DNA of 51,243 bases from a virus, in the IMG/VR virus record IMGVR_UViG_3300025853_000130, positions 1 through 51,243 of that record. One strand, 5' to 3'. The position numbers and the translations under genes were made by a program. Positions 1-30,450 of this stretch are shown here, piece by piece (the first letter of the stretch is position 1; every line of letters begins with the position of its first letter). A model generated the notes under the pieces. The model was not told the origin of the DNA, did no database searches, and was given only the letters and a program-made list of their open reading frames with translations.

Positions 1-494
1 TAAATATCTTTTAACAAACGCCATGACATATCCATCGGCTCGCCTGTTTGTATTTGTGAACCTTGCTTGGCTTTCTCGGCCATCTGTTGATTGTTCTGTT
101 GTTGCATTTGTTGTTGCTGTGCAAAATGTTGGCCTACTGCCATCGCCGCCCCACCTGCTCGTTGAGCGGCTGATTGTTGAGCGGGTGATTGTTGAGAGGG
201 TGATAGTTGGGCGTTATCTTCTTGACCTGCTTCTGTATTATCCGACCCCGAAGTAGCCATTGATGATGATGCCATCGAATTTTGTGTGCTACTTGGGGCT
301 TGACCTCCGCCTCCAAGTAGTTTAGAACCTAACATTGAAATGCCTAAGTTTTTAGCCGCACCTTTAGCCGCACCCTTAATTCCTCCCTGTAGGGCTTTTG
401 TACCAACCATTCTCAAAGCATTCATAGCAAGTGGAGCAAGAAATGCAAATTTTTCGATGTCGTCGTTGCCTTTTTTGACAGCGATGCGACTCAT
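1..494 (-). CDS. Gln-rich protein with EPMD tag, 3'-truncated by window edge
   Basis: Reading the - strand from ATG at 494 gives 164 codons with no stop before base 1, so the C-terminus is missing. Residues about 10-65 are Ala/Gly/Leu-rich and could form hydrophobic helices (LAPLAMNALRMVG, then GIKGAAKGAAKNLG). Residues about 65-150 are low complexity, rich in Ser, Gln and Ala, including a 15-bp tandem repeat. The visible end carries the recurring tag GEPMDMSWRLLK (bases 44-9), so a cargo module probably follows outside the window, as in the gene at 546. There is no Shine-Dalgarno before the ATG; an AT-rich box about 26 bp upstream suggests a leaderless transcript. It diverges from the gene at 546. 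Function unknown; a minor virion protein is a guess from composition only. Confidence 0.7.
   Translation of the reverse strand, partial: MSRIAVKKGNDDIEKFAFLAPLAMNALRMVGTKALQGGIKGAAKGAAKNLGISMLGSKLLGGGGQAPSSTQNSMASSSMATSGSDNTEAGQEDNAQLSPSQQSPAQQSAAQRAGGAAMAVGQHFAQQQQMQQQNNQQMAEKAKQGSQIQTGEPMDMSWRLLKDI
9..44 (-). repeat. EPMD tag copy in the truncated - strand gene
   Basis: The - strand codes GEPMDMSWRLLK here, one of 11 copies of the tag in the window. It keeps the Glu-Pro-Met-Asp start, the Trp and the Leu-Leu-Lys end, and shares the nucleotide core CGAGCCGATGGAT with the copies at 8453 and 8816. Confidence 0.75.
160..204 (-). repeat. 15-bp tandem repeat, three copies, in Gln/Ser/Ala tract
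   Basis: Three 15-bp units (160-174, 175-189, 190-204) of the form TGTTGAGNGGGTGAT lie in tandem inside the - strand gene and code for a Gln-Gln-Ser-Pro/Ala-Ala type pentapeptide. The in-frame unit length means copy number can change without breaking the gene. Confidence 0.65.
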
Positions 495-545: not shown

Positions 546-2876
546 ATGCGGAAGGTGGCGATACGCAAAGCGTACATTTCGCCCCAAGAGTATCGGCAGT
601 ATCTTGAAGATGTGAACCCGTTAGGTGGAAGCATACATTCACTTAGAATGCAACCAGCAGAATACAAAACACCAGCAGAAGCAAGGTCGTTAATGAGTGG
701 AGAAAATGTATTTTTTAGAAATAACCTAAGATACGCTCGACACAAAAATATAGATAAATTACCTTTGGAATTAGACGGAGTACCTTTAGGTGGCCGTTTT
801 ACATATCCCGCAGAATTATTTTCATTCAATCCCGATTTTCAATCGCATTCAAAAGCAGATGTGCCTTCAAGTTACAAGCATGGAAATAGACCGTTGCATC
901 TTTATGGGTTTGAAGGTAAAAATACACCACAAAGATATGCAGAAGTCTTGCAACCCGAAGGTATAATTTATGGCGATGTACCAGAAAGTGATATTCAAAG
1001 AATTACAAACAGACCTATAGATTTTCATGCATTAAGAATGGCGGCAACTGCTTTAATGCCAACGAATAATTTATCTATTGATGAATTAAAAGAAAAGGAA
1101 ATTGAAGCCGCAAAACAATTGATAGCATATGGAATACCACCTGTTCTTAGTGAAGATGTTTCACCCGTTACTCTTGAGCGAACACCTCAATCATGGGAAT
1201 CTATTGAGGATTTTCACGACCCATTTCAACAATGGAGTAAAAATCAACAACTTTTAAATGAACCATTAACGGATTTTACATTTCCAAAAGGTGAACCAAT
1301 GGAAATCGCCTTCCAACTGCTCAAACAAAGCCTTGAATTGCAACCTCCAATGACTCAAAGTGTTGAAGAGCAAGCACCAATGCAAGAAGATACACCCATG
1401 ATAGATATGCAAACAATAGAAAATAATGACCCTTGCTCTTGTGCTGAAACTGTTAGAACAGAAATACTTTCAGATTACCAAAATTACCTAAATCAGATAA
1501 TTGAAGATGAAGATGAAGATGGGCCTAATTGGACTTTTGGTGAGGAAAATGACCCCGAATATGAAACTCCGCATAAGCACGAAGCGTTAAAATATATGGA
1601 ATCTTTGATAGAAGAAGTTGAAAACGCAAGTTGTGAAGAAATAATGGAATATGAATTATATGATGAAATGTGTGATAATGCTGGTTTTAGTGAAGCCGAC
1701 CAAATGAAATACACAGGCGAACCAATGGACATCGCTTTGCGGTTGCTCAAAAATGATTATAGTCAATTACTCCGCTACCGGTTATTCAGCCCCCGATTTA
1801 GATTGAATGAAAATATAGCACCAATGGAAAATTTACCCAATTATCCATTAGGTTTGGATAAACCGGATGATATGGATGTAAGATTTATTAACAATTTAAA
1901 AAATACTATGAGAGATACCGGCAGAAATCATTTAAATTTTAGAACAACTAATGAGTCATCGCCAGATTTCGTACCCTTAACCTATTGGGAAAAAAGAGCA
2001 GATGATAAGAAAAGAGGCGAAATGTTATGGCAAAATAGATTAGATGAATTACAGGCGGCAAATGAAGAAAGAAAAAGAATGGGAATTGCAAACCCTGTTA
2101 ATGTATATACAAACAGAAAACCATTAACTGTGCGGTTGCCTAAAAAGCAAGAGCCAGAAAATGAAGAAGCAGAAAATGAAGATGAAAAACTCGCCAGCGA
2201 ACCAATGAACATCGCCTTCCAACTGCTCAAGGAAGACATTGATTATCAAGACGAAGAGTACATTCATCCTCATGAACAAATATGGAATGATGAAGCAGAT
2301 GAACAACTTATTGCTACTACCAATTCTTTGTGGGATTATGTGGAAAACATGAGTGATGATGACAAGTTATCCTTTTTGAATAATCAAGGAAATTACTTCA
2401 TGAATATGGCTTTTCAAAATCATTTTCCTACTACAAAAGAGGAATTAGACCGAGCAGTAATGGAAATAATGTTTGACGCATGGCAAGACTCGCAAGCGGA
2501 AATGCCCGGTGGTATTGATTTTGGTGATACTAAACCCGATGGCCTCCTTGACCCCGTAAGAGCGCACGCAGTACACCCCTCTCAATGGAAGAAACTCGCC
2601 AGCGAACCTATGGAAATCGCCTTTCAACTGCTCAAAGAGCGTGTAAGCCCCGAAGCCAAGCGGCACAAGTTGGAGTACGACAAGAAGTATGAGTCCAGCC
2701 CCGAAAGAATAAAGTATAGAGAGCAACTTAACCAAGAACGAAGAAAGCGTGGCATATACGGTAGCCACGACCATAAAGACATCAGCCACACCGAAGGTGG
2801 CAAATTAACTCTTGAAGGAGAACATGAAAACAGGGCAAGACATTTCAAAGACAAGGGAACTCTTCGGGAGTTGTAA
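546..2876 (+). CDS. Modular polyprotein-like gene with four internal EPMD tags; HNH-like last module
   Basis: The 776-residue product is not one recognisable fold. It is cut into segments by four near-identical tags: GEPMEIAFQLLK (249-260), GEPMDIALRLLK (391-402), SEPMNIAFQLLK (551-562) and SEPMEIAFQLLK (686-697). Each tag starts a new, dissimilar segment of 85-160 residues, as if separate tagged genes had been joined in frame. Residues 1-248 are unrecognised. The second segment is acidic with a CSC pair and a run of Asp/Glu. The last segment (about 698-776) has the pattern SSPERIKYREQLNQERRKRG followed by a His-Asp-His and a late Asn-Arg; this resembles small HNH-like proteins of phages, a family match made by eye. 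Start ATG 546 has no Shine-Dalgarno. The next gene begins 2 bp after the stop with the same tag, so it reads as the fifth module, separated by a stop codon. Confidence 0.75.
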   Translation: MRKVAIRKAYISPQEYRQYLEDVNPLGGSIHSLRMQPAEYKTPAEARSLMSGENVFFRNNLRYARHKNIDKLPLELDGVPLGGRFTYPAELFSFNPDFQSHSKADVPSSYKHGNRPLHLYGFEGKNTPQRYAEVLQPEGIIYGDVPESDIQRITNRPIDFHALRMAATALMPTNNLSIDELKEKEIEAAKQLIAYGIPPVLSEDVSPVTLERTPQSWESIEDFHDPFQQWSKNQQLLNEPLTDFTFPKGEPMEIAFQLLKQSLELQPPMTQSVEEQAPMQEDTPMIDMQTIENNDPCSCAETVRTEILSDYQNYLNQIIEDEDEDGPNWTFGEENDPEYETPHKHEALKYMESLIEEVENASCEEIMEYELYDEMCDNAGFSEADQMKYTGEPMDIALRLLKNDYSQLLRYRLFSPRFRLNENIAPMENLPNYPLGLDKPDDMDVRFINNLKNTMRDTGRNHLNFRTTNESSPDFVPLTYWEKRADDKKRGEMLWQNRLDELQAANEERKRMGIANPVNVYTNRKPLTVRLPKKQEPENEEAENEDEKLASEPMNIAFQLLKEDIDYQDEEYIHPHEQIWNDEADEQLIATTNSLWDYVENMSDDDKLSFLNNQGNYFMNMAFQNHFPTTKEELDRAVMEIMFDAWQDSQAEMPGGIDFGDTKPDGLLDPVRAHAVHPSQWKKLASEPMEIAFQLLKERVSPEAKRHKLEYDKKYESSPERIKYREQLNQERRKRGIYGSHDHKDISHTEGGKLTLEGEHENRARHFKDKGTLREL
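1290..1325 (+). repeat. EPMD tag copy 1 of the polyprotein-like gene
   Basis: Codes GEPMEIAFQLLK. The nucleotide core GAACCAATGGAAATCGCC is nearly shared with the copies at 1716, 2196 and 2601, so the copies are related by descent rather than only by amino acid convergence. Confidence 0.8.
1716..1751 (+). repeat. EPMD tag copy 2 of the polyprotein-like gene
   Basis: Codes GEPMDIALRLLK, 426 bp (142 codons) after copy 1. It is the most diverged of the four at the Ala-x-x position (Leu-Arg instead of Phe-Gln). Confidence 0.8.
2196..2231 (+). repeat. EPMD tag copy 3 of the polyprotein-like gene
   Basis: Codes SEPMNIAFQLLK. It is preceded by Lys-Leu-Ala, as is copy 4, so the repeated unit extends about three codons upstream in these two copies. 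Confidence 0.8.
2601..2636 (+). repeat. EPMD tag copy 4 of the polyprotein-like gene
   Basis: Codes SEPMEIAFQLLK, again after Lys-Leu-Ala. It introduces the basic HNH-like last segment. Confidence 0.8.
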
Positions 2877-2878
2877 AA

Positions 2879-3340
2879 ATGACTCCGATGGACAAGGCTT
2901 GGTTGTTTTTGAAAATGCCGGTGTATGAAACAAATGTACCCGGTATTCGTTTTGTCACTCAAGGAGATAATGAAGATTGGACACAAGATAAAAGTCTTCA
3001 TGGGGGATTACCGGGTGTTTGGATAAAAGAAGGAAAAACATTTGATTCAACTGAAAGAGAAATACCGCATGAAAGTGATTTAGAAGATTTTGCGGAAATA
3101 ACCAACATGACTCCAAATCAATTCTTACAAGAAACAGGAACAGATGAAATGGTTGAAGATGATTACTACAAAAACCTCATGCAAAGAGCAATGCAAGGAG
3201 AAGATATGCGTTTTGTAATACCAAGAGCAGACTATGTATTTACCGATAGTCCTGTGGGTCATGATGGTCGCCATCGTATGAGAGCATTACAGCAATTAGG
3301 CTACGGAGATACTTCAGTACCTGTCTTTAGGCAATGGTAA
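2879..3340 (+). CDS. EPMD-tagged protein with ParB/sulfiredoxin-like C-terminus
   Basis: The 153-residue product begins directly with a tag variant, MTPMDKAWLFLK (1-12). Its C-terminus holds VGHDGRHRMRALQQLGYGD then Val-Pro-Val, the Gly-x-His-Arg-x-x-Ala signature of ParB-like nuclease/sulfiredoxin-fold domains. The region between is acidic. The ParB fold is known to bind nucleotides or cut DNA, but activity here is inferred from one motif. It lies 2 bp after the polyprotein-like gene and is probably translated with it. It marks the end of this module block; a noncoding repeat region follows. Confidence 0.7.
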   Translation: MTPMDKAWLFLKMPVYETNVPGIRFVTQGDNEDWTQDKSLHGGLPGVWIKEGKTFDSTEREIPHESDLEDFAEITNMTPNQFLQETGTDEMVEDDYYKNLMQRAMQGEDMRFVIPRADYVFTDSPVGHDGRHRMRALQQLGYGDTSVPVFRQW

Positions 3341-4141: not shown

Positions 4142-4402
4142 ATGGGTCGAATCTTTAAAACTCCCGAAGATGATTCGACTGAGGCTACGCTACGAGCATT
4201 GCATACGCAAAACACACTTGATAATTATTACGAAAAAGGTATTGGATGGATAAGAACAATTCTTTTTACAATTTTAGGTATGATGTTTGTGAGTTTATGG
4301 GAAAACATAACAGGTGAATCGTTATGGGTAAATACAGTGGAATGGTTTTGGAACAAAGTCGAAGATTTTGGAAATTGGGTATTGGGGTGGTTAGATGGTT
4401 GA
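4142..4402 (+). CDS. Small single-pass membrane protein with Trp-rich tail
   Basis: The 86-residue product has a hydrophilic N-terminus, one transmembrane segment at about 34-53 (IGWIRTILFTILGMMFVSLW) and a Trp-rich amphipathic C-terminus (six Trp between 62 and 83). GAGGTGAT precedes the ATG. It overlaps the GTPase gene by 8 bp, so the two are translationally coupled. Role unknown; pairing with the GTPase at a membrane is the simplest idea. Confidence 0.75.
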   Translation: MGRIFKTPEDDSTEATLRALHTQNTLDNYYEKGIGWIRTILFTILGMMFVSLWENITGESLWVNTVEWFWNKVEDFGNWVLGWLDG

Positions 4403-5111
4403 ACCCGTTGGCTCGGCGGTTGTCGGTGCGGCAATATGGGGTCAAACCCTATACAACTCATGGAAGCCACGCAAGGTCGGTATTTACGGTGCGGGATTAG
4501 TTGGTAAAACTACACTTGACCGTTTTATGACAACACCCGGTGAAATGGAAGACATACCGTTAGAAGAGCGTACTGAACATATGCGAATTCTCGGTAGGTA
4601 TTTACTTCCAAAACCTACACGAAAGCGTATTTCATGGAAAGGTCAAAAGCGTGTTGTATTTTCATCCGATATAGGTGGTCAAGAGCGTTTTTGGAATCTA
4701 TGGATTGATGACATGGTAACTCGACAAGCCGAAGCAATTGTGTATATATTTGACGATAGAGTGTTGAAAGGCGGCGAAGAAGCATTACAACAAATTGCTG
4801 GTTTCAAATATTTAGTGGATGCTATCGTACATAGACAATACCGATATAGAAATTTAAAAAGCAGATGGAAAGGTAAAAAATATATTCCAAAGTTAATTAT
4901 GATTGTAGCAAACAAAGCGGATAGGTTTTTTGATGAAACTGCCGCAATGTTGTGGGGGCAAGACAGAATAGGAGAACACAAAATATTTGATGCTTTTCGT
5001 GATGATTTAATTCGTTTGCAAAAAGCAGGTGTACCAACAAGAAAATCATTCATGGCAACGAGAATAGGTTGGAATGTGGAAAATACAATGGTAAATTTAC
5101 TTACAGCATAG
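4395..5111 (+). CDS. Arf/Rab-like small GTPase
   Basis: The 238-residue product has the full set of Ras-superfamily motifs: P-loop GAGLVGKTT (32-40), switch II DIGGQERFW (92-100) with the catalytic-type Gln96, and the guanine-specificity motif NKAD (173-176). A late stretch ATRIGWNVENT (221-231) is placed like the G5/last helix. The DxGGQ form is typical of Arf-like proteins, while QERF recalls Rab. Known members switch between GDP and GTP states to control membrane or polarity processes. No lipidation site is seen; N-terminal residues 1-25 are mildly hydrophobic. The gene sits between small membrane proteins and an AbrB-like gene with overlapping or short junctions. A small GTPase of this kind in a tailed virus is unexpected. 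Biochemical role here is unknown. Confidence 0.85.
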   Translation: MVEPVGSAVVGAAIWGQTLYNSWKPRKVGIYGAGLVGKTTLDRFMTTPGEMEDIPLEERTEHMRILGRYLLPKPTRKRISWKGQKRVVFSSDIGGQERFWNLWIDDMVTRQAEAIVYIFDDRVLKGGEEALQQIAGFKYLVDAIVHRQYRYRNLKSRWKGKKYIPKLIMIVANKADRFFDETAAMLWGQDRIGEHKIFDAFRDDLIRLQKAGVPTRKSFMATRIGWNVENTMVNLLTA

Positions 5112-7391: not shown

Positions 7392-8069
7392 ATGGCGGCG
7401 GAGCGTATAGTCAAGCGTTCCTGTGCTTTTTGCATTTCCGAAGAGCGTGATTCATTAGAAGAAGAGATGCTTCAAGGCCACATTTCTGCTCGTCAATTGG
7501 ATAAAGATATGGGGTGGAGGCAGAACACCGCAGACCGTCATTATCGAAATCATATGGGTGAATATTACGAAGCGGCAAATGAATCGTGTCCTGTGTGTAC
7601 TACACCAATGCGTGCTGAGTATGAAACCGCTTATTTCTCAAATGAAATTACATCCGATGAAATAGCAAATCAATTAGAGATAAAAGAAACTGTTGTATAT
7701 CGTCATATGAAGAGTCATTTTCAACCACTTGTCCAAAAATCTGCGGCTATGGAAGTGGCACTTGTTGCGGGTCAAGAAATTGCTTTACTCCGTTCAAATG
7801 CTGAGAAATTAAATCACAAACTAAGTGAACTACTTGATGAAGGAACTGTACATGAAGATGGGTTTGTACGAGATGCTGTCGCTCTTCATAAAGAAGTACG
7901 AGAAACTGTCAAAGACTTGTTGCGTTTCCAAGACCAATGGGGTGCAAAGAGTGATGGGCAACAAGTCAATCAAACATTTAACATTCTTCAAGTTGAGTTG
8001 GGTAAAGAAAGCCCCGAAACTTGGATGCGTATAAAACGCCAATTGCAAGAAAACATGGGGGTTGAATAA
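7392..8069 (+). CDS. DNA-binding protein with two tandem zinc-HTH repeats; terminase small-subunit candidate
   Basis: ATG 7392 is chosen over a longer frame from 7278 because the extra residues lie antisense to the - strand zinc gene and look unselected. The 225-residue product contains two aligned units of 55 residues: C11-x2-C14...H50-x3-H54 (HYRNH) and C66-x2-C69...H105-x3-H109 (HMKSH), each with 35 residues between the Cys and His pairs and an HTH-like centre (ISARQLDKDMGW, TSDEIANQLEIKETVVYRH). The second half is helical. Tandem DNA-binding modules upstream of a terminase large subunit suit a DNA-recognition subunit of the packaging motor, but three genes lie between. A transcription regulator is the alternative. 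Confidence 0.65.
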   Translation: MAAERIVKRSCAFCISEERDSLEEEMLQGHISARQLDKDMGWRQNTADRHYRNHMGEYYEAANESCPVCTTPMRAEYETAYFSNEITSDEIANQLEIKETVVYRHMKSHFQPLVQKSAAMEVALVAGQEIALLRSNAEKLNHKLSELLDEGTVHEDGFVRDAVALHKEVRETVKDLLRFQDQWGAKSDGQQVNQTFNILQVELGKESPETWMRIKRQLQENMGVE

Positions 8070-9718
8070 TGGTTATGGGAAGAGGTTCGGACACTCGCCT
8101 GTATAACCCTCGTAGTGAATCGGATAAGATGTATTCATCTGCAAATGAAGATGAAACAAAATACAATCCCGCTTCACCCGAATACAATGAGCAAAAGCGT
8201 GAAGAAAAGAAACTCAAAGAAGAAGAAAAGAAAGCAAATAAGGGTAAAATAAAACACATTAAAATTCGTGCTTCACAAGGATTGCGTGGTGAAGAAAGCC
8301 CTGTTGCTATGAATGATTCAAACAAAAGAGATGAAGAGCGTGAAATTGGACTTACAGGTGGACCGCCCGGTAGTCGAGGTAATTTACTTGACCTTGCTAC
8401 AGGTGCTAAAACAGGCACAGGTTCAGCAATGACAGGACCATTACCAATCGCAATGAGCGAGCCGATGGATGATGCTTGGAGTACATTGTTGAAGGAAGAA
8501 CCTACTGTACACCCCGGAGAAAATCAATACAAATACAGATATAATATGCCAAATCGTGATGATGTTCACCCCGAATGGTATAATTGGATTCAAGAATTGA
8601 TAGATAAACCGTGGGAATACGAAGGAATTGGGGATGATTTTACACAACCCGATATAGACCATTTAGCAGGTGCTACATCTCGTGAAGATTTTTTTGATAG
8701 ATTATATGATTTACATAATTTTATTGTTGATGATGCACGACCCCCGTTTGATGATATAGAAGGTGAATATCGTGATTTTACTGATGTACCGTTTAATGAA
8801 AAAACAGGTTTCACTATGAGCGAGCCGATGGATGATGCTTGGAGTAATTTGCTCAAAATAGAAACACCACGCACAATTGCACGACGCAGAAAACAAGAAG
8901 CCCGTCAAGAATTTCGACCATCAACAGGACAATTCAAGCGACCTCCCGGCGGCATGGACCCGGTAGGGGCAACAATGCGACGGTTTAAAGCCCGTATGCG
9001 TGGTATCAAAGGTGGTAAGAAAACAGGTTTGATGTTGCCTCACTTAGCCGTTGAAATGAGCCACAGGGGTATTGCGACTAAACAACCGATGAGTAAAGAC
9101 CCACAACGATACCGAGCCTATCAAGGTCAATCCGAGGCAAGAAAAATTCTTGGTAATGTGCGAACTACATTTTCACCACACGCTCGATTTGCACAACGAG
9201 GCAGTTATGCTGGTCCAACAGGAGCGGGTCGTCTTGGTGGATTGTTGCCACAACAAAAGGGAATGATGCGACAACCATCACTTCGACCACTACGAGTAAG
9301 AGCACCACGACCTCCACAACCACCAATGATGCCACCAATGATGCCACCACAATTACCACCTGTTCAATCATCTGTACCAAGTATGCCAGCACCACCATCA
9401 AGTATTATGATGAGTGAAGATAGAACTCAAAGCGACATTTTGAAAGCAAAAAATTTCGCAAGACATATGGAAATGCTTAATTTAATGCGTCGGCTTATTG
9501 CGGCAAAAGAAAGAGAAGCGAAATTAAAGAAAGCGATGCAAGGTGGAGGCTCGGCGTTTGAAAACGGTCATGTTCCCGACCACCCCGCAGGTGTTCAAAA
9601 CAATGAAGATGAAGATGAAAAGAATGATGGACCAACACAAAATCTTGAAACAAATTCAAGCAGAATGGGTCTTGACCCTGCTGGTATTCTTATTTCTCGT
9701 AGGGGGCATATGGGATGA
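8069..9718 (+). CDS. Basic, Pro/Met-rich protein with a cassette bounded by two EPMD tags
   Basis: ATG 8069 overlaps the previous stop (TAATG). The 549-residue product begins with a charged Lys/Glu-rich helix region (40-70). Tag copies MSEPMDDAWSTLLK (129-142) and MSEPMDDAWSNLLK (250-263) are separated by exactly 121 codons. The 107-residue acidic segment between them (Trp, Tyr and Asp-rich) differs strongly from the basic, Arg/Gly/Pro-rich sequence on both sides. After residue 263 the protein is basic, with a PP-MM-PP low-complexity stretch near 415-430 and a final acidic part. The layout looks like one tagged cargo inserted into an older basic protein. A minor head or DNA-associated protein is possible from its place before the terminase; not established. 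Confidence 0.7.
   Translation: MVMGRGSDTRLYNPRSESDKMYSSANEDETKYNPASPEYNEQKREEKKLKEEEKKANKGKIKHIKIRASQGLRGEESPVAMNDSNKRDEEREIGLTGGPPGSRGNLLDLATGAKTGTGSAMTGPLPIAMSEPMDDAWSTLLKEEPTVHPGENQYKYRYNMPNRDDVHPEWYNWIQELIDKPWEYEGIGDDFTQPDIDHLAGATSREDFFDRLYDLHNFIVDDARPPFDDIEGEYRDFTDVPFNEKTGFTMSEPMDDAWSNLLKIETPRTIARRRKQEARQEFRPSTGQFKRPPGGMDPVGATMRRFKARMRGIKGGKKTGLMLPHLAVEMSHRGIATKQPMSKDPQRYRAYQGQSEARKILGNVRTTFSPHARFAQRGSYAGPTGAGRLGGLLPQQKGMMRQPSLRPLRVRAPRPPQPPMMPPMMPPQLPPVQSSVPSMPAPPSSIMMSEDRTQSDILKAKNFARHMEMLNLMRRLIAAKEREAKLKKAMQGGGSAFENGHVPDHPAGVQNNEDEDEKNDGPTQNLETNSSRMGLDPAGILISRRGHMG
8453..8483 (+). repeat. 31-bp direct repeat, copy 1 (EPMD tag)
   Basis: Identical by eye to 8816-8846 over 31 bases, beginning ATGAGCGAGCCGATGGATGA. 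It encodes the start of the tag. Spacing to copy 2 is 363 bp (121 codons), so recombination between copies would delete the cassette in frame. Confidence 0.85.
8816..8846 (+). repeat. 31-bp direct repeat, copy 2 (EPMD tag)
   Basis: Second copy of the repeat at 8453-8483. Identity stops shortly after, where the two tags diverge in their Leu-Leu-Lys codons, so this is not a long duplication. Confidence 0.85.
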
Positions 9719-11673
9719 TACAGATTCGATACCCATTGCTCAAGGGGTGGAGTCTTATGGCTCACACACCAACAGGACCAGCAATTTTGAGAAATCCTCC
9801 ACCATCACATTTTCGTGCAGGTGAAAACCAATTCGATATTCCAGCATTCGCTCATGACGGTCAAGGTAATTCATACGATGGACAATGGGTTGAAGGAAAA
9901 CACGGAGAATTCGTATGGCAAACAGCAATGGGTGATTTTCGTCATGGAATTGATGCTGTTATTCATCATGTTGGTGAATTTTTAGCGGCACGAGGCCTCA
10001 ATATTGACCCTAAAGAGGTTGTACAACATGCAATTAACCAATTTAATGATACTCACACTAATGCAGACTCACATCAATTGTCAAATATTATGCATCCAGA
10101 ATGGCGTAAAATACTTGCTAATGCGTTACCACCCGGCGACGCTACACGATATATAACAAATAGACCATCAAGAACACATGGTGGAAGTAAAATTACTATG
10201 CTCACAAATAAAAATTATGACAAAACTCCTATTGGTCGTTTCCTTGAATCATATTATATTCCATTTCATCAACAATTATTACACGCTTTAGAAGATATAG
10301 GCATACCTCAAGCGGAAATTAAAAATGCAATGCAGTGGATAACAAAACCATATATTTATGCTAAAAATACTGCTCCCGAAAGATATATTCGTTCTCATGC
10401 TCAACAACACCCCGGAGAAGTTGATTCGGGTATGATGGGTCATGCTCCCGAAGGTTACTACGGCGACCAAACCCCTGTACATACATGGAGTGTTACACAT
10501 CATTTGCCCGATATTTTCTTTTATCCTAATTTAAAAGAAAACTTGCAAAAGAAAGGCAAACAAAAAGCCACAGACTTGCATCAAGCGGCTTACGCAATGA
10601 TTGATGAAGCCTTACAAGGAGGTATGGAACATATACCTAACATCAATGTAACAATCAATCAAGGTACAATGGCAAATCCCGATATGATTAACAGACCTCT
10701 TCATGAAATTCTTCAAACACCCGATTTACGCCAAGCACTTATTGAAGATATGTCACATGTACCTGCTATGATGTTTTTGTTTGGTCGTAATTGGCAAGGT
10801 ACTTTTAAAAAATTATACGATTACATGGCTCAAAAATATGGTGCTAATGAAGATGCACTTTCACTTGAACAACAAGCACAATATCTTACTGCTGGTGAAA
10901 AAGGTGGTAAAGGATTACACGAAACAGCCAAGCGTGTGCTTGCTCTTGCTCGTGCATCGGGTGCATCGGGAGAACAAGGCAGAAGTAATTTTGGCGACCA
11001 TCAAATAACTGCTGATGAATTAAAAGTTACAAATGCTCATTATAGTGACAAACTTATGGGGCAAGTTGATAGATTTAGAACAATTATTGAGGCTCTTGCA
11101 AACCATCAAGCAAGTTTTAGAGGTCATAATATACAAATGGGAGTTGGAGATATACCAACTGAGGCTATGAAGCCAAGAAATGTCATCAACTATCCAACAA
11201 TGAACACAGAAACGGGGCAATATGATGCGTATAGTCTTGAGCCTCACATGGATGCATATTTACACGAAATCAGTGACTATGCACCAACACAGGGCTTCGA
11301 CCCATCACTTACTGTCGCAGGGGATGCAAGGTTGCCTCCTTCACAACCTTCTCTCTCATCTTCGGTTATATCTCCGCCGAACGCATCCCCTGTGACACCC
11401 GTACCCTCAACTTATCCCGCTACACCTATGCAACAATTTCAACAAGTTCGACCACAAATCGGACAATATTCACCTGCTGACTTTAGGCAGTTGCTTGAAA
11501 TGGCAGGAAGGCGACGACCACAACCAATAAGTGATGCACCGCTAACTGAACTTGAGGCAAGAGCACAAGCGAGCATAGCCGACCCACGACAGCGAATGTT
11601 GGCCGAATATTACAAATCAAATGATGTTATGGATAGAGTTATGGCGGTGTTAAAAGGGAGGGGTGTACTTTGA
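9715..11673 (+). CDS. Large protein of unknown function upstream of terminase
   Basis: The frame opens at ATG 9715, overlapping the previous stop by four bases (ATGA). ATG 9757 (MAHTPTGPA) has a better ribosome site, GGGGTGGAG at 9744-9752, and may be the true start. The 652-residue product is His-, Asn- and Gln-rich in its first 500 residues, with no recognised catalytic motif. Residues about 545-610 are a Pro/Ser-rich linker, and the C-terminus is helical. Its style (many His, Asn, 'THAH'-like phrases) resembles the 1,910-residue protein at 20086. It is probably a virion protein; no family recognised. Confidence 0.7.
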   Translation: MIQIRYPLLKGWSLMAHTPTGPAILRNPPPSHFRAGENQFDIPAFAHDGQGNSYDGQWVEGKHGEFVWQTAMGDFRHGIDAVIHHVGEFLAARGLNIDPKEVVQHAINQFNDTHTNADSHQLSNIMHPEWRKILANALPPGDATRYITNRPSRTHGGSKITMLTNKNYDKTPIGRFLESYYIPFHQQLLHALEDIGIPQAEIKNAMQWITKPYIYAKNTAPERYIRSHAQQHPGEVDSGMMGHAPEGYYGDQTPVHTWSVTHHLPDIFFYPNLKENLQKKGKQKATDLHQAAYAMIDEALQGGMEHIPNINVTINQGTMANPDMINRPLHEILQTPDLRQALIEDMSHVPAMMFLFGRNWQGTFKKLYDYMAQKYGANEDALSLEQQAQYLTAGEKGGKGLHETAKRVLALARASGASGEQGRSNFGDHQITADELKVTNAHYSDKLMGQVDRFRTIIEALANHQASFRGHNIQMGVGDIPTEAMKPRNVINYPTMNTETGQYDAYSLEPHMDAYLHEISDYAPTQGFDPSLTVAGDARLPPSQPSLSSSVISPPNASPVTPVPSTYPATPMQQFQQVRPQIGQYSPADFRQLLEMAGRRRPQPISDAPLTELEARAQASIADPRQRMLAEYYKSNDVMDRVMAVLKGRGVL

Positions 11674-12843: not shown

Positions 12844-14328
12844 ATGTCGGACATGGAAGAATTCATTCTCGACATGGACCGCAAGATGTCGGCAAAGTCG
12901 TTTGAATATTTCTTTCGTGATATTCTTGGCTTCGATTATTCACGACACCACGAAGCGTGGGATGAGGGTTTAGCAAAAAACAGATACTACTGCGTAAAAG
13001 CATCTCGTGACCACGGTAAGTCCGTCTTTTTCATGTCATATGCTCTTTGGATTGCCGCTTTTCAACCCGGCACTCACATCATGATTTTCTCACATTCTCT
13101 TGAACAAACGCTTGAACACATGCGTTTTATTCGTAACAATATCGAAAGCACACCATCTATTCGACATCTTATTCCCGAAGGCAGACCGTGGCGAAAAACC
13201 TACTTTGAATTTTCAAACGGTAGCCGTATCATGGCAAAATCGGTTGGTGGTGGTACTCGTGGTTTCCACCCTAATGTTGTATTGTGTGATGACATTCTTT
13301 GGGGTACAACAGGTACAGAACTACAGCGTGCGGCTGATTGGTTCTATGGTGTATTGCTTCCTGTTCTCCACCACACAGGTCGTTTGATGATGGTCGGTAC
13401 GCCATTTAGTTACAACGACTTGTATTCGCAACTTGAAGAAACTGAAACATTTACTGTTGAAACATACCCTGCAATCAACAAAGAGGGCGTAGCATTATGG
13501 CCGGAGCGATGGAATATTCAAGCACTTGATGAGCGACGACTTACAATGCCAGCAATTCAATTTTCTCGTGAATATTTGTGCGAACCTATTCATGATGTAG
13601 CAAGTATGTTTCCTCACGACATTCTTGAAAAAGCACGAAATAAAGACCTTGTTTTACTTGACCGAGCGGAGTATGAATATGACGATGAGGGTGAAGTGTT
13701 AGGTGTTTTCGGGCAACACTTTATCGGATGGGATACTGCAATTGCATCGGACAAGAATGCCGACTTTACTGCTATGACTGTACTACGAACACCTCCCGGT
13801 GAAAATGTAAAGCAAATAGTAAGTATTGTGCATGAAAAAGGTATGAGTGGTGCGGCACAGAAAAATCATATTCTTTTACTGAATAATCGTTTTCAACCAG
13901 ATTTAATTGAACTTGAAGGAAATAATTTCCAAAGAATGTTTGCCGCAGAACTTCAAGACATGCGAAATGATATACCAATTCGTACTTTTATGACCACAAA
14001 AACACGAAAAGAAAGTTTGTTTATGTCGCTTTTAATGGCATTTGAACAAGGTCAAATTCAAACACCTTATGGTGATAAAAGAAGTCAAGAATTTACACAC
14101 AAGTTAGAAACTGAATTGAACAGATTTGGTATGCAGAAGAATGGCAAACTTGAGTCTGTGGGTACACATGATGACCTTGCTATGTCGCTTGCACTTGCAA
14201 ATTGGGCGACAAAAGAATTCAAAGGTTCAGTGGTCTTACTTGATGATGTACTACCCGGCTTTGATGAGTGGATTGGTGGGAAACCACATCGAAATCATAA
14301 TCCCGCAGATGGATGGATGATACCGTGA
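12844..14328 (+). CDS. terL: Terminase large subunit (packaging ATPase and nuclease)
   Basis: The 494-residue product, of normal family length, has an atypical Walker A ASRDHGKS (53-60), Walker B VVLCDD (145-150) and the coupling motif VGTPFSYND (184-192). The C-terminal RNase H-like nuclease shows Asp297 in FIGWDTA, a Glu/Asn cluster LIELEGNN (354-361) and the late acidic pair HDD (442-444). It drives ATP-dependent genome translocation into the procapsid through the portal at 16999 and cuts the concatemer. ATG 12844 follows the previous stop by four bases with GATGAT as a weak ribosome site. The order here, with five genes between terminase and portal, shows accessory insertions. Confidence 0.93.
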   Translation: MSDMEEFILDMDRKMSAKSFEYFFRDILGFDYSRHHEAWDEGLAKNRYYCVKASRDHGKSVFFMSYALWIAAFQPGTHIMIFSHSLEQTLEHMRFIRNNIESTPSIRHLIPEGRPWRKTYFEFSNGSRIMAKSVGGGTRGFHPNVVLCDDILWGTTGTELQRAADWFYGVLLPVLHHTGRLMMVGTPFSYNDLYSQLEETETFTVETYPAINKEGVALWPERWNIQALDERRLTMPAIQFSREYLCEPIHDVASMFPHDILEKARNKDLVLLDRAEYEYDDEGEVLGVFGQHFIGWDTAIASDKNADFTAMTVLRTPPGENVKQIVSIVHEKGMSGAAQKNHILLLNNRFQPDLIELEGNNFQRMFAAELQDMRNDIPIRTFMTTKTRKESLFMSLLMAFEQGQIQTPYGDKRSQEFTHKLETELNRFGMQKNGKLESVGTHDDLAMSLALANWATKEFKGSVVLLDDVLPGFDEWIGGKPHRNHNPADGWMIP

Positions 14329-14358: not shown

Positions 14359-14541
14359 ATGAGTTGTGAATGCGGTCATTGTGTAGGTATGGGTACTGCG
14401 TGGGATTCACTTGAAAAAAAACTATGCCCCGAAGGTAAAGCGGCGGCAAAAAGAAAATTCAAAGTTTATCCATCAGCCTATGCGAATGGTTGGGCTGTAC
14501 AATACTGCAAAGGTAAGTTTCGGGGGAAGAAAAAGAAATGA
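14359..14541 (+). CDS. Small Cys-containing protein with YPSAYAN motif
   Basis: ATG 14359 is preferred because GGGGG lies 8 bp before it; upstream in-frame starts lack a site. The 60-residue product begins MSCECGHC and contains VYPSAYANGWAVQYCKG followed by a Lys-rich end. The YPSAYAN phrase is common in small virion-associated proteins of marine phages and related viruses; its function is not known to me. It overlaps the next gene by four bases (ATGA), starting a chain of three such junctions. Confidence 0.65.
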   Translation: MSCECGHCVGMGTAWDSLEKKLCPEGKAAAKRKFKVYPSAYANGWAVQYCKGKFRGKKKK

Positions 14542-14966
14542 ATCCCTTTGAAATTGCTTGGTTCGTACTAAAAGCCCCTATAGATTGGGATTCATATACA
14601 GAAAATCAAGATGAAGGTCAAAAAATAATCAATGTGGATTATGTTAATCCAAAAGATAGTAACAAAATATACCCTATAACTGCTTGGGATTATGATGACC
14701 CATTTTCACCCGGAATAGATGCTGTTGTTTCTAATCCTAAAGGAGAAAATGTAGGACATGCTAATTTAAGATATGAAGATGACAAAATAACAGTTGATAG
14801 AGCAAATGTAAATCAAATCAACAGACGACAAGGAATCAATACGGCTATGTATCAGTTATTAGAACATCTTTTGCAAGAAAAATTCAATCGTCAAATTGAG
14901 CCTTCTATACATCAAAGTGAGGATGCAAAACAGTTTTGGGAAAGTGATTGGAGGAATAAAAAATGA
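14538..14966 (+). CDS. EPMD-tagged GNAT-like acetyltransferase
   Basis: The 142-residue product opens with the tag variant MNPFEIAWFVLK (1-12). The C-terminal half reads VGHANLRYEDDKITVDRANV then RRQGINTAMYQLLEHLL, which matches the strand plus Q/R-x-x-G-x-G/A acetyl-CoA loop (motif A) of the GNAT fold. A late Trp-containing helix (FWESDW) fits as well. GNAT enzymes transfer acetyl groups from acetyl-CoA to amines; the substrate here is unknown. It is the second example of a small enzyme-like domain directly behind the tag. ATGA overlaps on both sides couple it to its neighbours. Confidence 0.7.
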   Translation: MNPFEIAWFVLKAPIDWDSYTENQDEGQKIINVDYVNPKDSNKIYPITAWDYDDPFSPGIDAVVSNPKGENVGHANLRYEDDKITVDRANVNQINRRQGINTAMYQLLEHLLQEKFNRQIEPSIHQSEDAKQFWESDWRNKK

Positions 14967-15184
14967 CGGCGTTTGAGTATGTCATGGCTTTTCTCAAGGA
15001 AAAGCGTGATGCACCAAACTACCGTGAGGCTTCTCAAGAACAAAAGAAACTCAAAAAAACATGTGCGACATGTAAAGCATGGGATAATTCGGTTACAGAT
15101 GACCCAAAAACGGGATATTGTAATTGGTACGATTTCAATTGTCATGCTGATAATATCTGTGATGCGTGGGTGAAGAAAGAATGA
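14963..15184 (+). CDS. EPMD-tagged small zinc-ribbon protein
   Basis: The 73-residue product starts with a diverged tag, MTAFEYVMAFLKEK. The rest is Cys-rich: C34-x2-C37, then GYCNWYDFNC and ICDAW, six Cys in all. This is a small metal-binding or disulfide module often seen in marine phage genomes. The tag has lost the Pro and Trp but keeps Phe-Glu and the Phe-Leu-Lys end. It overlaps the next gene by four bases. Function unknown. Confidence 0.65.
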   Translation: MTAFEYVMAFLKEKRDAPNYREASQEQKKLKKTCATCKAWDNSVTDDPKTGYCNWYDFNCHADNICDAWVKKE

Positions 15185-15688: not shown

Positions 15689-17002
15689 GTGGTCAATGGA
15701 GTGGTCAATATGTGGGGGAGTATGCTTATCGGAGATGAATACGACACCCCACTTTCTTTCGTTGATGAATTATCGAATGTTGTCATAAAATCAATATCTC
15801 AGCACCCTTTCTTTGAACCCGATAAAATTCCAATAGAAAAACACAAAGTTGTTCAAAAAATAAACAAAGAATATTCTTTTCCTTTAAACGGTGATGGTTG
15901 GTTAGAATCATATTATGGAAAAGATTCGGATTCAATTATTCGTATGTTTAAAAGAATGCGAAGACACGATAAAGTGAATAAAGCAGAATATGATACAATT
16001 ATTCAAGATATTCGTAAAATAAAAGCGTTGGAAGTTGATACGACGCTTAAATCACTTTCATGGGGTGAAGGGTTTATTGATACCATAAAACAATTAGGTA
16101 TTGATAATCGAGATTTAAAATCACTTCGTAAGTTTGGTGAAAGTCGAAGTACAAGTTTGCAAAAGGCTTGCCAACAATTTTTGAAAGCCTCAACTGTTCT
16201 TCAAGACTTAACTCAAAAGGAAGATTGGAATGATGATGATAAAATCCAATATGTTACGGCAATGGAAATGAGAAAAGATGCTCGTAAAGTATGGAAAAAC
16301 GCTCTTCATCAAATAGATAATCTCACAAAAGCAGAAAAAGATGCATTGTATTTTGCCTCAACTGAATTAGAAAAAGAAGATAATTTATCAGCAAGGGAAT
16401 TATTTCGTAGGGGTAAAGATGAGTTTGCTAAATCAATGACGGCAAACAAAATGAGTTCGCTACTCAATATGTATGGTGAAGAAGTGAATGTGTACAAAGG
16501 AACACAAACAGGCACTTTCATTAAAATGGGAAATAGTGGTTTTATTATTAAAGATATTTGGGCTTATACTGCTGGATTTATTGATGCTGATGGTAGTATT
16601 TTTATTTCCGAGCGTGGCGACCCTCGTGTTACTATTGTAGCGAGTGGCGATGGAGGTAAAGCCCATTGTGAAGAATTGCAAAAAATGCTTGGTTGTGGTC
16701 GTCTTGTTACTGATACAAAATTAGCAAAAAATACAGTTAAACCTGTTCATCGGCTTATTTTTTCATCAAAAGATATGATTCGTGATTTACTCAAAGGTGT
16801 TTTGCCTCATTTAAAATTAAAATCGTTGCAAGCAAAAGCAGTAATGAGTTTTATTGATGAAAAAGATTCCATGAGAAAAAATGAATTATATCAACTTGTA
16901 ACTTTCAATAATTGGAAAGATGATAAAAACAAAGCCGAATCACTCTTAAACAAGTGGGGCTTAGACGCTGATACGATAGGTGGATATGCGGAGGGATTAT
17001 GA
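15689..17002 (+). CDS. Helical protein with C-terminal LAGLIDADG endonuclease-like domain
   Basis: The frame opens at GTG 15689; ATG 15710 is an alternative. A 17-codon frame (15685-15738) with its own GGTTAA site overlaps the start and may modulate it. Residues 1-285 are mostly helical and charged, of no known family. From residue 289, IWAYTAGFIDADGSIFI is a clear LAGLIDADG motif with the two Asp. It is followed by strand-loop-helix elements and KLKSLQAKA near 390, the usual layout of a single-motif homing endonuclease domain. No intein splice blocks are seen. It overlaps the portal gene by four bases. Either a homing endonuclease fused to a host-virus gene or a domesticated DNA-binding domain in a packaging protein. 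Confidence 0.75.
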   Translation: MVNGVVNMWGSMLIGDEYDTPLSFVDELSNVVIKSISQHPFFEPDKIPIEKHKVVQKINKEYSFPLNGDGWLESYYGKDSDSIIRMFKRMRRHDKVNKAEYDTIIQDIRKIKALEVDTTLKSLSWGEGFIDTIKQLGIDNRDLKSLRKFGESRSTSLQKACQQFLKASTVLQDLTQKEDWNDDDKIQYVTAMEMRKDARKVWKNALHQIDNLTKAEKDALYFASTELEKEDNLSARELFRRGKDEFAKSMTANKMSSLLNMYGEEVNVYKGTQTGTFIKMGNSGFIIKDIWAYTAGFIDADGSIFISERGDPRVTIVASGDGGKAHCEELQKMLGCGRLVTDTKLAKNTVKPVHRLIFSSKDMIRDLLKGVLPHLKLKSLQAKAVMSFIDEKDSMRKNELYQLVTFNNWKDDKNKAESLLNKWGLDADTIGGYAEGL

Positions 17003-18756
17003 TGGCTGAGGAAGGAAGAATAAACCGGTTTTTATCAGCCCTTGGTAAGCCGTTTAGACGAAGAGAAACTCCTACCCCAACAATGCCTCTTTGGACAAGT
17101 GGTATTCAAGAACCTGTTATGGCTCAAGGAATTACTATACCTGCACTTTATGCGGTAAGTAATGAATCACTTATCTTGCGTACCGTTCTTTCTAAATTAA
17201 ATCAAGAAATGTTTCGCAGGGGTCATTATTGGGAAAAGAAATTTATTATGAAATGTACATCATGTGATGAAGAATATCAAAGCGAAGTTGAATCATGTAA
17301 AATATGTGGTGGAGAAGTTCGTAAGCCCGATAATGATGAACTTACATATTCTAAATGGTTGTTTAAACAACAAAACAGCATGGAACAATCATTTGTTCAT
17401 GTATTAAGTGAGATAGAAAGTGATTTGAATATTGTTGATGATGCGTTTTTAATTTTGGTTAAAGAATATTTTATTGACCCTAATACAAAAGAAGTTGCCT
17501 TTTTCCGAGTTAAAGAAATGATGAGAGGCGACCCTATTTTTATGCGAATCGTAGCAGATAAGCGAGGTGTTCGTGGAGGCCGATATAAAATATGTTTAAT
17601 TCATCGTGATGAGGCTAAAACACATGCGGAAGATGATGTTTGTGAAACATGCGGGGCTGAATTGCAAGAAGTACATTATGTTAATATGGCAGGTTCGGGT
17701 AAAACACAATACTTTGTTGAAGGCGAAGTTCTCCATGTGAGTAAATACAATCCATCAAAATTGTATGGTCGAAGTCCTGTTAATACAATGTGGCGACAAG
17801 CAATGACACTTACTGCAATGGACAATTATATTTACACTGCTTATCAAAAGCGACGAATGCCTAAAGGTATAGTTTCTGTTACTACAGATAATCTTGAATC
17901 AATGAAATCTTTCTGGAAAGCCGTTGATGAAAAAATGGAGCGTGACCCTCACTATGTGCCTAAAGTTGGTATAGAATCTGCTACGGGTCGAGGTGGAGTG
18001 AATTGGGTTAAATTCATGGACACCTTAGAAGAAATGCAGTATATCGCTGTAAGGGATGAAATACGAAATCGTATTGCCGCATTTTACGGTGTATCATCTA
18101 TCTTTATGGTTGATAATGGTAAATCGGGTGGATTAAACAATGAAGGTTTGCAAATTCTCGTAACAAATCGTGCTGTTGAATTTGGGCAAAAAGTGTACAC
18201 GGAAGTTTTGTTTCCTCGTTTATTAAAAGAATTTAACATTAATGATTGGAAATTGACACTTTATCCAAACGAAGAAGAAGATGAAATTACTCGACTACGC
18301 CGTGATGAACAAGAACTCAATGTTGCACAGCGAATGGCTCAATTAGGATATATGCCCGAACTTATTGAAGATTCAGCAAATAGAGATATACGATTTGTGT
18401 ATAAACGACCACCACCTCCACAACCTCAACAAGCACCTCCACCCGGAGGAGCACCACCTCCGATGGGTGGTGGAATGCCCCCCGGTGGTGGAATGCCACC
18501 TCCAATGATGGGAGGCGGAATGCCTCCTGCTGGACCACAAATACCTCCACAATTAGCACAACAAATTATGCCACCACCTCAACCCGGTGGACAGGGTATG
18601 GGCATACGAGATAGAGGACCGGCCGCACCCGAAAGAAGAACTACAATGGGTAGTGGTTCGCCGCTTTCAAGCGTACAACAACGAGGACCACAACCTTCAA
18701 TTCAACAAAATAATGTCAATGCACTACTAAACGCAAGGAGATTTCGTGGTGCATAA
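16999..18756 (+). CDS. Portal protein with zinc-ribbon insertions
   Basis: The 585-residue product follows the terminase block and shows portal-like content. The N-terminal half is mixed alpha/beta, with SKYNPSKLYGRSPVNTMWRQ (248-267), typical of portals, followed by helices (AMDNYIYTAYQKRRMPKG). A conserved clip/wing-like part ends near residue 455. Two Cys clusters, C86/C89/C100/C103 and C199/H202/C215/C218, look like zinc sites. Residues about 470-535 are Pro/Gly/Met-rich low complexity, then a basic tail. The portal is the dodecameric DNA channel at one capsid vertex and docks the terminase. GSGKT at 232-236 is not a true P-loop. ATGATG start at 16999 overlaps the previous stop, after GGAGGG. 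Confidence 0.82.
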   Translation: MMAEEGRINRFLSALGKPFRRRETPTPTMPLWTSGIQEPVMAQGITIPALYAVSNESLILRTVLSKLNQEMFRRGHYWEKKFIMKCTSCDEEYQSEVESCKICGGEVRKPDNDELTYSKWLFKQQNSMEQSFVHVLSEIESDLNIVDDAFLILVKEYFIDPNTKEVAFFRVKEMMRGDPIFMRIVADKRGVRGGRYKICLIHRDEAKTHAEDDVCETCGAELQEVHYVNMAGSGKTQYFVEGEVLHVSKYNPSKLYGRSPVNTMWRQAMTLTAMDNYIYTAYQKRRMPKGIVSVTTDNLESMKSFWKAVDEKMERDPHYVPKVGIESATGRGGVNWVKFMDTLEEMQYIAVRDEIRNRIAAFYGVSSIFMVDNGKSGGLNNEGLQILVTNRAVEFGQKVYTEVLFPRLLKEFNINDWKLTLYPNEEEDEITRLRRDEQELNVAQRMAQLGYMPELIEDSANRDIRFVYKRPPPPQPQQAPPPGGAPPPMGGGMPPGGGMPPPMMGGGMPPAGPQIPPQLAQQIMPPPQPGGQGMGIRDRGPAAPERRTTMGSGSPLSSVQQRGPQPSIQQNNVNALLNARRFRGA

Positions 18757-19160: not shown

Positions 19161-19502
19161 ATGAGTGAAGAAGCACCCAATGCTGAGTATCTTATGGGTG
19201 TACTCATTAACAAAATGGAAGTAATGGACACCAATTTAAACATTCTAAAGGCTGAAAATGAGGCTTTGAAAAAAATGATTAACAATCCTCAAGCATTGTT
19301 GCGTAAAATGGGTTTAGTTCATGTATCAACTCCACTTACTACAGACCTTTTAGCAGACCCGTTTAGAAATGATTTTGAAGATAATTCAATCCTCAAAACC
19401 GAAAAATCATATATTCCACAATCAAATGAAGAATTCCACAATATGTCGTGGGAAGATATTCATGATTTAGCAAACCAAGCAAAAGGAGTGAAAATTGAAT
19501 GA
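19161..19502 (+). CDS. Coiled-coil protein sharing the scaffold C-terminal motif
   Basis: GAGGTGGTTAA precedes ATG 19161. The 113-residue product has a likely coiled coil at 8-40 (heptad Leu/Met/Ile). Its C-terminus, SNEEFHNMSWEDIHDLANQA, strongly resembles the end of the protease-scaffold protein (STEDLGNMGWDEVHALARR, 27130-27185). Scaffold C-termini in tailed phages bind the coat or portal, so this small protein probably touches the same partner. It sits between portal and the large protein at 20086 and overlaps the next gene by four bases. Portal-scaffold adaptor is an inference. Confidence 0.65.
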   Translation: MSEEAPNAEYLMGVLINKMEVMDTNLNILKAENEALKKMINNPQALLRKMGLVHVSTPLTTDLLADPFRNDFEDNSILKTEKSYIPQSNEEFHNMSWEDIHDLANQAKGVKIE

Positions 19503-20071
19503 AGCCAAGATTTGAAGAATCGGAAATTATGAAAAAGGCTCGTGAGGTATCTTTGCGAATTGACGCATTAGAAAAAGCAAAGTGCGACTGTGGAAAAGAA
19601 CCATGTGAGTGTAAAAACTGTCCTAAGTGCGGCACTAAAATGAACAAGATGGGTTGCATGAAGATGGGTTGCGGTGGCAAAATGGAAAAAGCCGAACCCG
19701 GTTACAAGAGTGAAAAGATTACTGACATCAATCCTCACTTTGTAGCAGAATCGGGTGGTCAAACAAAGACGGGATATTTTACTACAAATGGTCGAACCAT
19801 TGAAGCAGAAGATGCTCCAAAGAAAAAGAAAGGTAAAGAAGCAACCGATATGGAAAATCTTGGCTCAAGAATGAATCCACATGAAGGCGGCGGTATTGAG
19901 CGTGAAGATTCACAAGGTGGTAAATCATCTGTGCAAAAAGCAAATCCAAGAGCAACCATGCGAGAAGCAGGTATGGGAATATGCGGTCTTTGTGGCGGTA
20001 CAGACCGCACAGGTTGTTTGTTGCACGAAGGAATGGATTTGCACGCTTGCCCTAAATTTAAACCGCTATGA
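19499..20071 (+). CDS. Cys-rich metal-binding protein of unknown function
   Basis: The 190-residue product has a dense Cys cluster at 29-58 (CDCGKEPCECKNCPKCGTKM, then GCMKMGC), eight Cys within 30 residues. A second Cys/His group near the C-terminus reads GICGLCGG...GCLLHEGMDLHAC. Between them is a polar Lys/Gly-rich linker. Zinc ribbons or a metallothionein-like site are both possible. It starts in the stop of the previous gene (ATGA) and its own stop overlaps an ATG at 20068. Function unknown. Confidence 0.65.
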   Translation: MKPRFEESEIMKKAREVSLRIDALEKAKCDCGKEPCECKNCPKCGTKMNKMGCMKMGCGGKMEKAEPGYKSEKITDINPHFVAESGGQTKTGYFTTNGRTIEAEDAPKKKKGKEATDMENLGSRMNPHEGGGIEREDSQGGKSSVQKANPRATMREAGMGICGLCGGTDRTGCLLHEGMDLHACPKFKPL

Positions 20072-20085
20072 AAGGCGGTGAAATC

Positions 20086-29862: not shown

Positions 29863-30450
29863 ATGAAAATTTTAATTAAAGCAATGAAACCACATCGTCA
29901 AAAAATCTTGACCGAAAGCGGTGAAGAAATGAGATTACAACAATGGGCAAACAAAAAGGCCGCAGAAGCACTACGAGGAGCGGGTGGTGATGTACAGGGT
30001 GAGCAGTTTCAACAAGCAAGGGATGCACTCATGCGAGAAGCCGTAGCCAACCCCGATGCTCACGGCCTTAAATTTATGAATGAGCGTATGCCATTTGAGG
30101 GTCAATCCTTAGAAGAATCGTTGAGCGAACCCGATATTGAGAGCGAGCAAGGAGCAGTTAAAGGACCAGAAGAAGGACCGGATGAATGGATGGGGGATGA
30201 ATCTCCCGAACATTTTGAAAATGTAAGAGAAAAAGAAGGTGTCAAACAATTTTTACAACAAAGAGGAAAAGACCTTTTTGATGAGCAAGGCAAACTTCGC
30301 CAAACGCTTTCGCAAGAAAGTGATGAAGAAGAGGAAGATGATTTTGATGAAGATGCCGCCGCAGAACACATGCGGCGTATCATGACCTCTCGTGATATTG
30401 CTATGCGTGATGCTTGGAGTGTATTAAAGCAAGAGCCGTATGAACAGTGA
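29863..30450 (+). CDS. Acidic head-region protein ending in an EPMD-like tag
   Basis: The 195-residue product is strongly acidic, especially 95-175 (Glu/Asp runs), with a basic N-terminal 20 residues. It ends with MRDAWSVLK (181-189) and a short EPYEQ tail, the tag form placed at the C-terminus instead of the N-terminus. The DNA GATGCTTGGAGT is identical with the tag copies in the gene at 8069. Acidity suggests a scaffold-like or DNA-mimic role; not established. If tags recruit cargo to one partner, this gene shows that either end can be used. Confidence 0.65.
   Translation: MKILIKAMKPHRQKILTESGEEMRLQQWANKKAAEALRGAGGDVQGEQFQQARDALMREAVANPDAHGLKFMNERMPFEGQSLEESLSEPDIESEQGAVKGPEEGPDEWMGDESPEHFENVREKEGVKQFLQQRGKDLFDEQGKLRQTLSQESDEEEEDDFDEDAAAEHMRRIMTSRDIAMRDAWSVLKQEPYEQ

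Follow-up and report, generated by a model that had tools for sequence, protein, structure and literature searches.

The window analysed here, the whole 51,243 bases of IMGVR_UViG_3300025853_000130, shows a tailed-virus gene order, and close to its start lies a polyprotein-like gene in which a 12-residue peptide with the consensus (G/S)-E-P-M-(D/E)-x-A-W-x-L-L-K recurs ahead of one dissimilar module after another (Table 1). The four tags of this gene have the positions and residues that the original prediction gave them, and the further copies it listed are present as well, at 9-44 on the minus strand and at 2879, 8456, 8819, 14538 and 14963. The copy at 14963 and that near 30403 are weak, and both are backed by orthologues, which have good tags in the first case and, in the second, C-terminal tags at the same place that score 14.5 and 21.9 bits. 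A clearer tag is likewise seen in orthologues of the gene at 9715-11673 (17.8 bits in relative G002; in G020 it is also C-terminal), and the gene truncated at 3-494 exists in full in G018, as a protein of 635 residues with two tags.

Table 1. Tags, tag-bearing genes and landmark genes of the window, with one module of HVTV-1.
Position	Strand	Feature	Sequence	Remarks
9-44	-	tag	GEPMDMSWRLLK	in gene 3-494 (-), cut by contig end
546-2876	+	polyprotein-like gene, 776 aa		four internal tags, different module after each
1290-1325	+	tag	GEPMEIAFQLLK	residue 249 of 546-2876 product; following module found in 5 genomes
1716-1751	+	tag	GEPMDIALRLLK	residue 391 of 546-2876 product
2196-2231	+	tag	SEPMNIAFQLLK	residue 551 of 546-2876 product
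2601-2636	+	tag	SEPMEIAFQLLK	residue 686 of 546-2876 product; PHROG 6437 module follows
2879-3340	+	stand-alone gene, N-terminal tag (2879-2914)	MTPMDKAWLFLK	ParB/sulfiredoxin-like cargo (weak)
8069-9718	+	conserved head-region protein		basic, low-complexity, disordered-looking; cassette insertion site
8456-8494	+	tag variant	SEPMDDAWSTLLK	one extra residue (AWxxLLK)
8819-8857	+	tag variant	SEPMDDAWSNLLK	one extra residue (AWxxLLK)
9715-11673	+	conserved head-region gene	NDVMDRVMAVLKGRGVL	sequence at C-terminus, degenerate tag (6.7 bits)
12844-14328		terminase (TerL)
14538-14966	+	gene, N-terminal tag (14538-14573)	MNPFEIAWFVLK	GNAT cargo
14963-15184	+	gene, weak N-terminal tag (14963-14998)	MTAFEYVMAFLK	17 bits; Cys-rich cargo
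16999-18756		portal
25856-27208		head maturation protease
27219-28319		major capsid protein (MCP)
29863-30450	+	gene downstream of MCP	DIAMRDAWSVLK	degenerate C-terminal tag (~30394-30429), 10.7 bits
~4230-4330, 8680-8760, 12900-12985		module of HVTV-1 (L172)	VYVxSPxEAPExxxVxxGxxGGxYY	positions in HVTV-1

Against named phage records, matches to the window's MCP were limited to viruses of haloarchaea (34-37% identity) and of methanogens, with no named magrovirus among them. HVTV-1 and HCTV-1 of the Druskaviridae, whose MCPs are 34-37% identical to that of the window, also resemble it in head gene order. Several relatives measure 90-110 kb. Traits of the Magrovirales type are present (an archaeal tailed virus, relatives of 90-110 kb, a Druskaviridae-like MCP), and the MCP matches, the size of the relatives and the magrovirus literature (PMC10160649, PMC12999244) together point to Poseidoniales (marine group II archaea) as the host. 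The tag-bearing lineage as a whole probably consists of tailed viruses of ocean archaea. Among the best 80 loci of each search, MCP relatives were either at least 75% or about 35% identical and no intermediate lineage was found; among GTDB genomes, neither a close MCP relative nor the exact tag pattern was found. The words "motif" and "repeat" do not occur in the text of PMC10160649.

Some neighbouring genes have features of their own. At the border of the head module, 4395-5111 encodes a small GTPase-like protein found in 17 of 17 genomes, with G1, DxGGQ and NKAD motifs recognised by eye and a weak Pfam Roc match, for which phmmer finds no sequence relative in the PDB. Between terminase and portal, the gene at 15689-17002, conserved in 17 of 17 genomes, contains a LAGLIDADG-like stretch (AYTAGFIDADGSIFI, by eye), and between portal and protease a giant protein (20068-25818; 17 of 17 genomes) appears by eye to end in a ligase-type nucleotidyltransferase-like part; the giant protein at the matching position of HVTV-1 is annotated as a zeta-toxin. 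A frame that runs off the contig end (38216-51241; over 4,342 residues) is probably a tail or adhesin gene.

In IMG/VR, a degenerate DNA pattern for PM(D/E)xAWxLLK matched 90 stretches with 100 motif copies, and the window's MCP was present in 27 of 30 and 27 of 50 tag-bearing records (two sets), the near-complete matches having at least 73% identity; many of the other records are fragments. The profile search that had been proposed as a check carries the motif well beyond the window: across 17 related viral genomes, a 12-column profile yields 251 matches scoring at least 12 bits, where column-permuted profiles give 3.2 on average and never more than 7; with the cut-off raised to 16 bits, the figures are 230 and 0.4. 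Homologues of the protein encoded at 19161 (MESMDxxLxxLK-AEN) were rejected as tag copies, being a coiled coil that the profile matched falsely, and their removal by a sequence filter left 236 copies, with one member (in G024) still in the set. The same coiled-coil protein (19161-19502) and the protease(-scaffold) end, in many of the 17 genomes, in a second common peptide, MSWDEVHxLA (19443-19502 and 27155-27208 in the window), which may be a coat-binding scaffold tail. The 236 tags, 5-22 per genome, are distributed over 164 genes, in which 98 are N-terminal, 120 internal and 18 C-terminal; 116 of the genes (~70%) have a single tag, and polyproteins hold up to eight. N-terminal tags typically read M-[STNRG]-[PA]-[FMIL]-[DE]-x-A-W-x-[LVI]-L-K, and internal or C-terminal ones [GS]-E-P-M-[DE]-[ILM]-A-[WFM]-[RQS]-L-L-K.

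The proteins so marked have almost nothing else in common. Their cargo falls into ~146 sequence clusters, and an alignment of 116 tagged proteins gives a mean column identity of 4%, with PxDxAWxxLK as the sole contiguous consensus motif. Given the ~146 clusters, and with no family in Pfam or PHROG extending across the tag, we reject the view that it belongs to a single ordinary domain; that reading, or that of a chance amphipathic helix, is refuted by the unrelated contexts together with the permutation control and keeps virtually no probability. PHROG 9713 (23 residues) touches the tag, the isolated peptide scoring E 0.32. From the tag onward, small stand-alone tagged genes have a median length of ~142 residues. 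Recognisable cargo includes an ADP-ribosyltransferase (ART)-like domain, for which the structure model has matches among archaeal structures of KptA/Tpt1 (E 3.2e-5), an HD hydrolase of the RelA/SpoT type (E 3e-13), GNAT, the basic domains DUF5872 and DUF6321, PHROG 6437 and, weakly, a ParB/sulfiredoxin-like domain. In ART-like and other, apparently unrelated cargo, a linker RQTxLGEFHPDLPSxxGPV follows the tag (L043:1198-1300, L041, L061, L095, L091) and shows stronger conservation than the cargo does.

How cargo and tag come together can be read from the gene at 8069-9718, whose orthologues are tagged in 17 of 17 genomes. In G010 the orthologue has a single tag, that is, an empty site; in the window the order is tag, 109 residues, tag, with an insert that is absent from G010; in G002 a different insert of 255 residues stands between two tags; and in G020 tag and insert alternate (tag-insert-tag-insert-tag), one insert being the module that in the window lies behind the tag at 2196 (2232-2600), in a different protein. 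Cargo that one virus encodes as a separate N-tagged gene can also recur in another as a module inside a polyprotein, as with the PHROG 6437 module of the 546-2876 gene, which stands alone in G001. Cargo thus moves as tag-bounded cassettes. With the same tag on unrelated cargo, in three protein positions and throughout the lineage, this movement between tags strongly supports the earlier description of a portable address label on cargo modules.

Swaps at tag borders would also be expected if the tag were a recombination repeat only, a short DNA element for cassette exchange that has no role as protein, and the tags of one gene are indeed near-copies in DNA, with a codon identity of 0.67 where 0.37 would be expected. 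In tags of unrelated genes, however, codon identity is 0.42 within and 0.44 between genomes, so that the DNA similarity originally taken to indicate copying does so within a gene and recent genome-wide copying is rejected: unrelated genes carry the tag without it. Conservation lies at the protein rather than the DNA level, as the mixture of synonymous codons shows: position 11 uses each of the six Leu codons, and position 7 uses four for Ala. Where cargo is 90-99% identical between genomes (most such pairs belonging to one cargo family, DUF6321), tag similarity is 0.52 compared with 0.57 for random tag pairs, and these divergent tags still retain the helix pattern. Because the tags of unrelated genes are not DNA copies, and those within a genome are no closer than those between genomes, selection on the peptide appears more likely than recent copying, and we consider a DNA element without protein function extremely improbable. 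A conservation of the tag exceeding that of its cargo was rejected as a signal of selection; tags are no better conserved than cargo, and the pattern alone is kept.

This pattern is that of a short amphipathic helix. The hydrophobic moment of the tag, 0.49, exceeds the 0.30 of random windows drawn from the proteins that carry it, and two single-chain models of modest confidence (mean pLDDT 75 and 66) predict a separate helix (residues 3-14 or 3-11) followed by a low-confidence linker. Such a helix, with Trp, Phe and Met on its hydrophobic face, could conceivably act by binding the host membrane at entry or exit. Its short length, near-neutral charge, acidic position 5 and proline at 3, its internal copies between other modules, and preferences for A7, L11 and K12 that suggest a protein pocket would nevertheless make this very improbable. 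The original prediction had further raised a cleavage site for the prohead protease. As a processing site, the tag would be cut by this protease after LLK and the polyprotein modules would be freed, and the separation of dissimilar modules by tags, the retention of K12 in 198 of 236 copies and the presence of a head maturation protease gene agree with it. Yet different residues follow the lysine (A, K, E, Q, S, G, M), a 10-residue helical pattern exceeds the needs of a cut site, and many tags sit at an extreme N- or C-terminus, where a cut would release little. Moreover, fused ART-HD proteins stay joined through LLK/VLK remnants, and the fused genes L026 and L059 keep at least one intact tag while their downstream tags have decayed to such remnants with the modules persisting; the tag therefore looks like an address per polypeptide, not a cut site per module, and cleavage becomes quite improbable.

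The genomic distribution of tagged genes bears on where such an address might lead. They lie on the TerL strand in 151 of 164 cases and within 20 kb upstream of TerL in 122, a stretch comprising a cargo island and the first part of the head module; tagged ORFs make up ~47% of the cargo island, 11% of the head module and 1% of the tail region, and the replication half and the tail genes are nearly free of tags. With tagged genes in the late head region and effector-like cargo, recruitment into the prohead is the simplest reading. Packaging into the capsid is likewise the best supported of the roles initially suggested, given late head-proximal genes, effector-type cargo and a head-region gene that is always tagged, and packaging itself is what we infer from these.

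The main rival to a packaging label is a hub outside the virion, on which the tag would gather late viral proteins in the course of infection, whether on a viral scaffold, in a condensate or at a single host factor. Multivalent proteins with up to eight tags would suit such a role, short linker-borne helices are able to bring about condensation in microcompartment systems (PMC12339742), and internal tags have the same consensus similarity within as between genomes (0.50 in both), which fits one conserved partner, viral or host. The same equality leads us to reject genome-specific co-evolution of tag and partner; N-terminal tags are slightly more alike within a genome (0.479) than between genomes (0.448). 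Against the hub stand the preponderance of single-tag genes, the clustering with the head module, and the absence of any exact tag of the internal form from 84,980 bacterial and archaeal species genomes (exact pattern only); the tag is accordingly no obvious imitation of a widespread host motif. On balance we regard the hub as unlikely.

Known systems offer partial precedents for a packaging label. The T4 capsid-targeting sequence (CTS) is N-terminal, found on a small number of proteins and cut off by the prohead protease. The tag described here differs in occupying N-terminal, internal or C-terminal positions, in its copy number and breadth of cargo, in its occurrence in polyproteins and in its sequence. 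What the two share is a short peptide on otherwise unrelated proteins, since the T4 internal proteins (IPI-III, Alt) are diverse injected proteins with nothing in common but a short peptide that takes them into the prohead core (PMC3012670). The earlier statement that no system of this form has been described is fair, with the T4 arrangement as a close functional parallel, and by analogy the best explanation we can offer is that the tag works like a capsid-targeting sequence, but one that is movable and multi-copy. Alt is itself an ART packaged in the head and then injected, as noted in the part of Iyer et al. 2017 used here (PMC5512222), which also lists ART, GNAT, ParB and RelA/SpoT among the domains of polyvalent proteins delivered with phage or plasmid DNA. 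Like these predicted co-travellers of DNA, the tagged set comprises shuffled effector domains in multidomain late proteins encoded near packaging genes (its ParB-like member being weak). Polyvalent proteins, in contrast, are joined by domain fusion with no common short tag described in that part of the source, whereas the lineage studied here places the same 12 residues on single-domain genes and polyproteins alike. The encapsulation peptides of bacterial microcompartments, similar by description, are short helices on linkers that bring unrelated cargo into a protein shell (as described in the parts of PMC11157265 and PMC12339742 drawn on here), but they belong to a cellular organelle and not to a virus.

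We therefore lean, by slightly more than an even balance and partly by analogy, towards a tag that serves as a docking helix for recruiting cargo into the prohead. The helix, N-capped by S/T/G-E-P, with an acidic position 5 and a hydrophobic face of M/F4-A7-W8-L11, would bind a conserved component of the assembling head, be it coat, scaffold or portal, a single partner being suggested by the tag consensus common to the genomes, and this binding would bring any tag-carrying protein into the prohead. The cargo would then consist of fast-exchanged effectors and DNA-binding proteins, ejected together with the genome. Since the helix would function at either end of a protein as well as between domains, recombination beside an existing tag could bring in new cargo, giving rise to arrays of small N-tagged genes and to multi-tag polyproteins. 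Several observations count against the packaging label: MCP, portal and protease carry no tag; eight intact tags in one protein exceed the needs of a simple address; the sampled Druskaviridae have a homologous MCP yet lack the tag (in the late region of HVTV-1 and, for three records, in a 21 kb region about the MCP); and we found neither a binding partner of the tag nor, in the literature searched, a virion proteome of the lineage. Virion proteomics of HVTV-1 was not found in that literature either. HVTV-1 has a recurring module of its own (Table 1); it lies N-terminally in gp115 and C-terminally in gp116, with a degenerate version N-terminal in gp113, and is possibly an analogous label in this sister group.

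More tentatively, at somewhat less than even likelihood, the lineage may possess an open cargo-loading system, in which one capsid-side receptor accepts a universal 12-residue helix at any position and effectors are traded as tag-bounded cassettes, a proposed gain and loss of protein cassettes that we liken to the trade in gene cassettes by integrons. If this is true, effectors could be exchanged without any redesign of packaging, and the tag would provide a ready-made peptide to load foreign proteins into an archaeal virus capsid. It would also mark at a glance the injected-effector repertoire, most of it without annotation, of what are probably very abundant uncultured viruses of ocean archaea.
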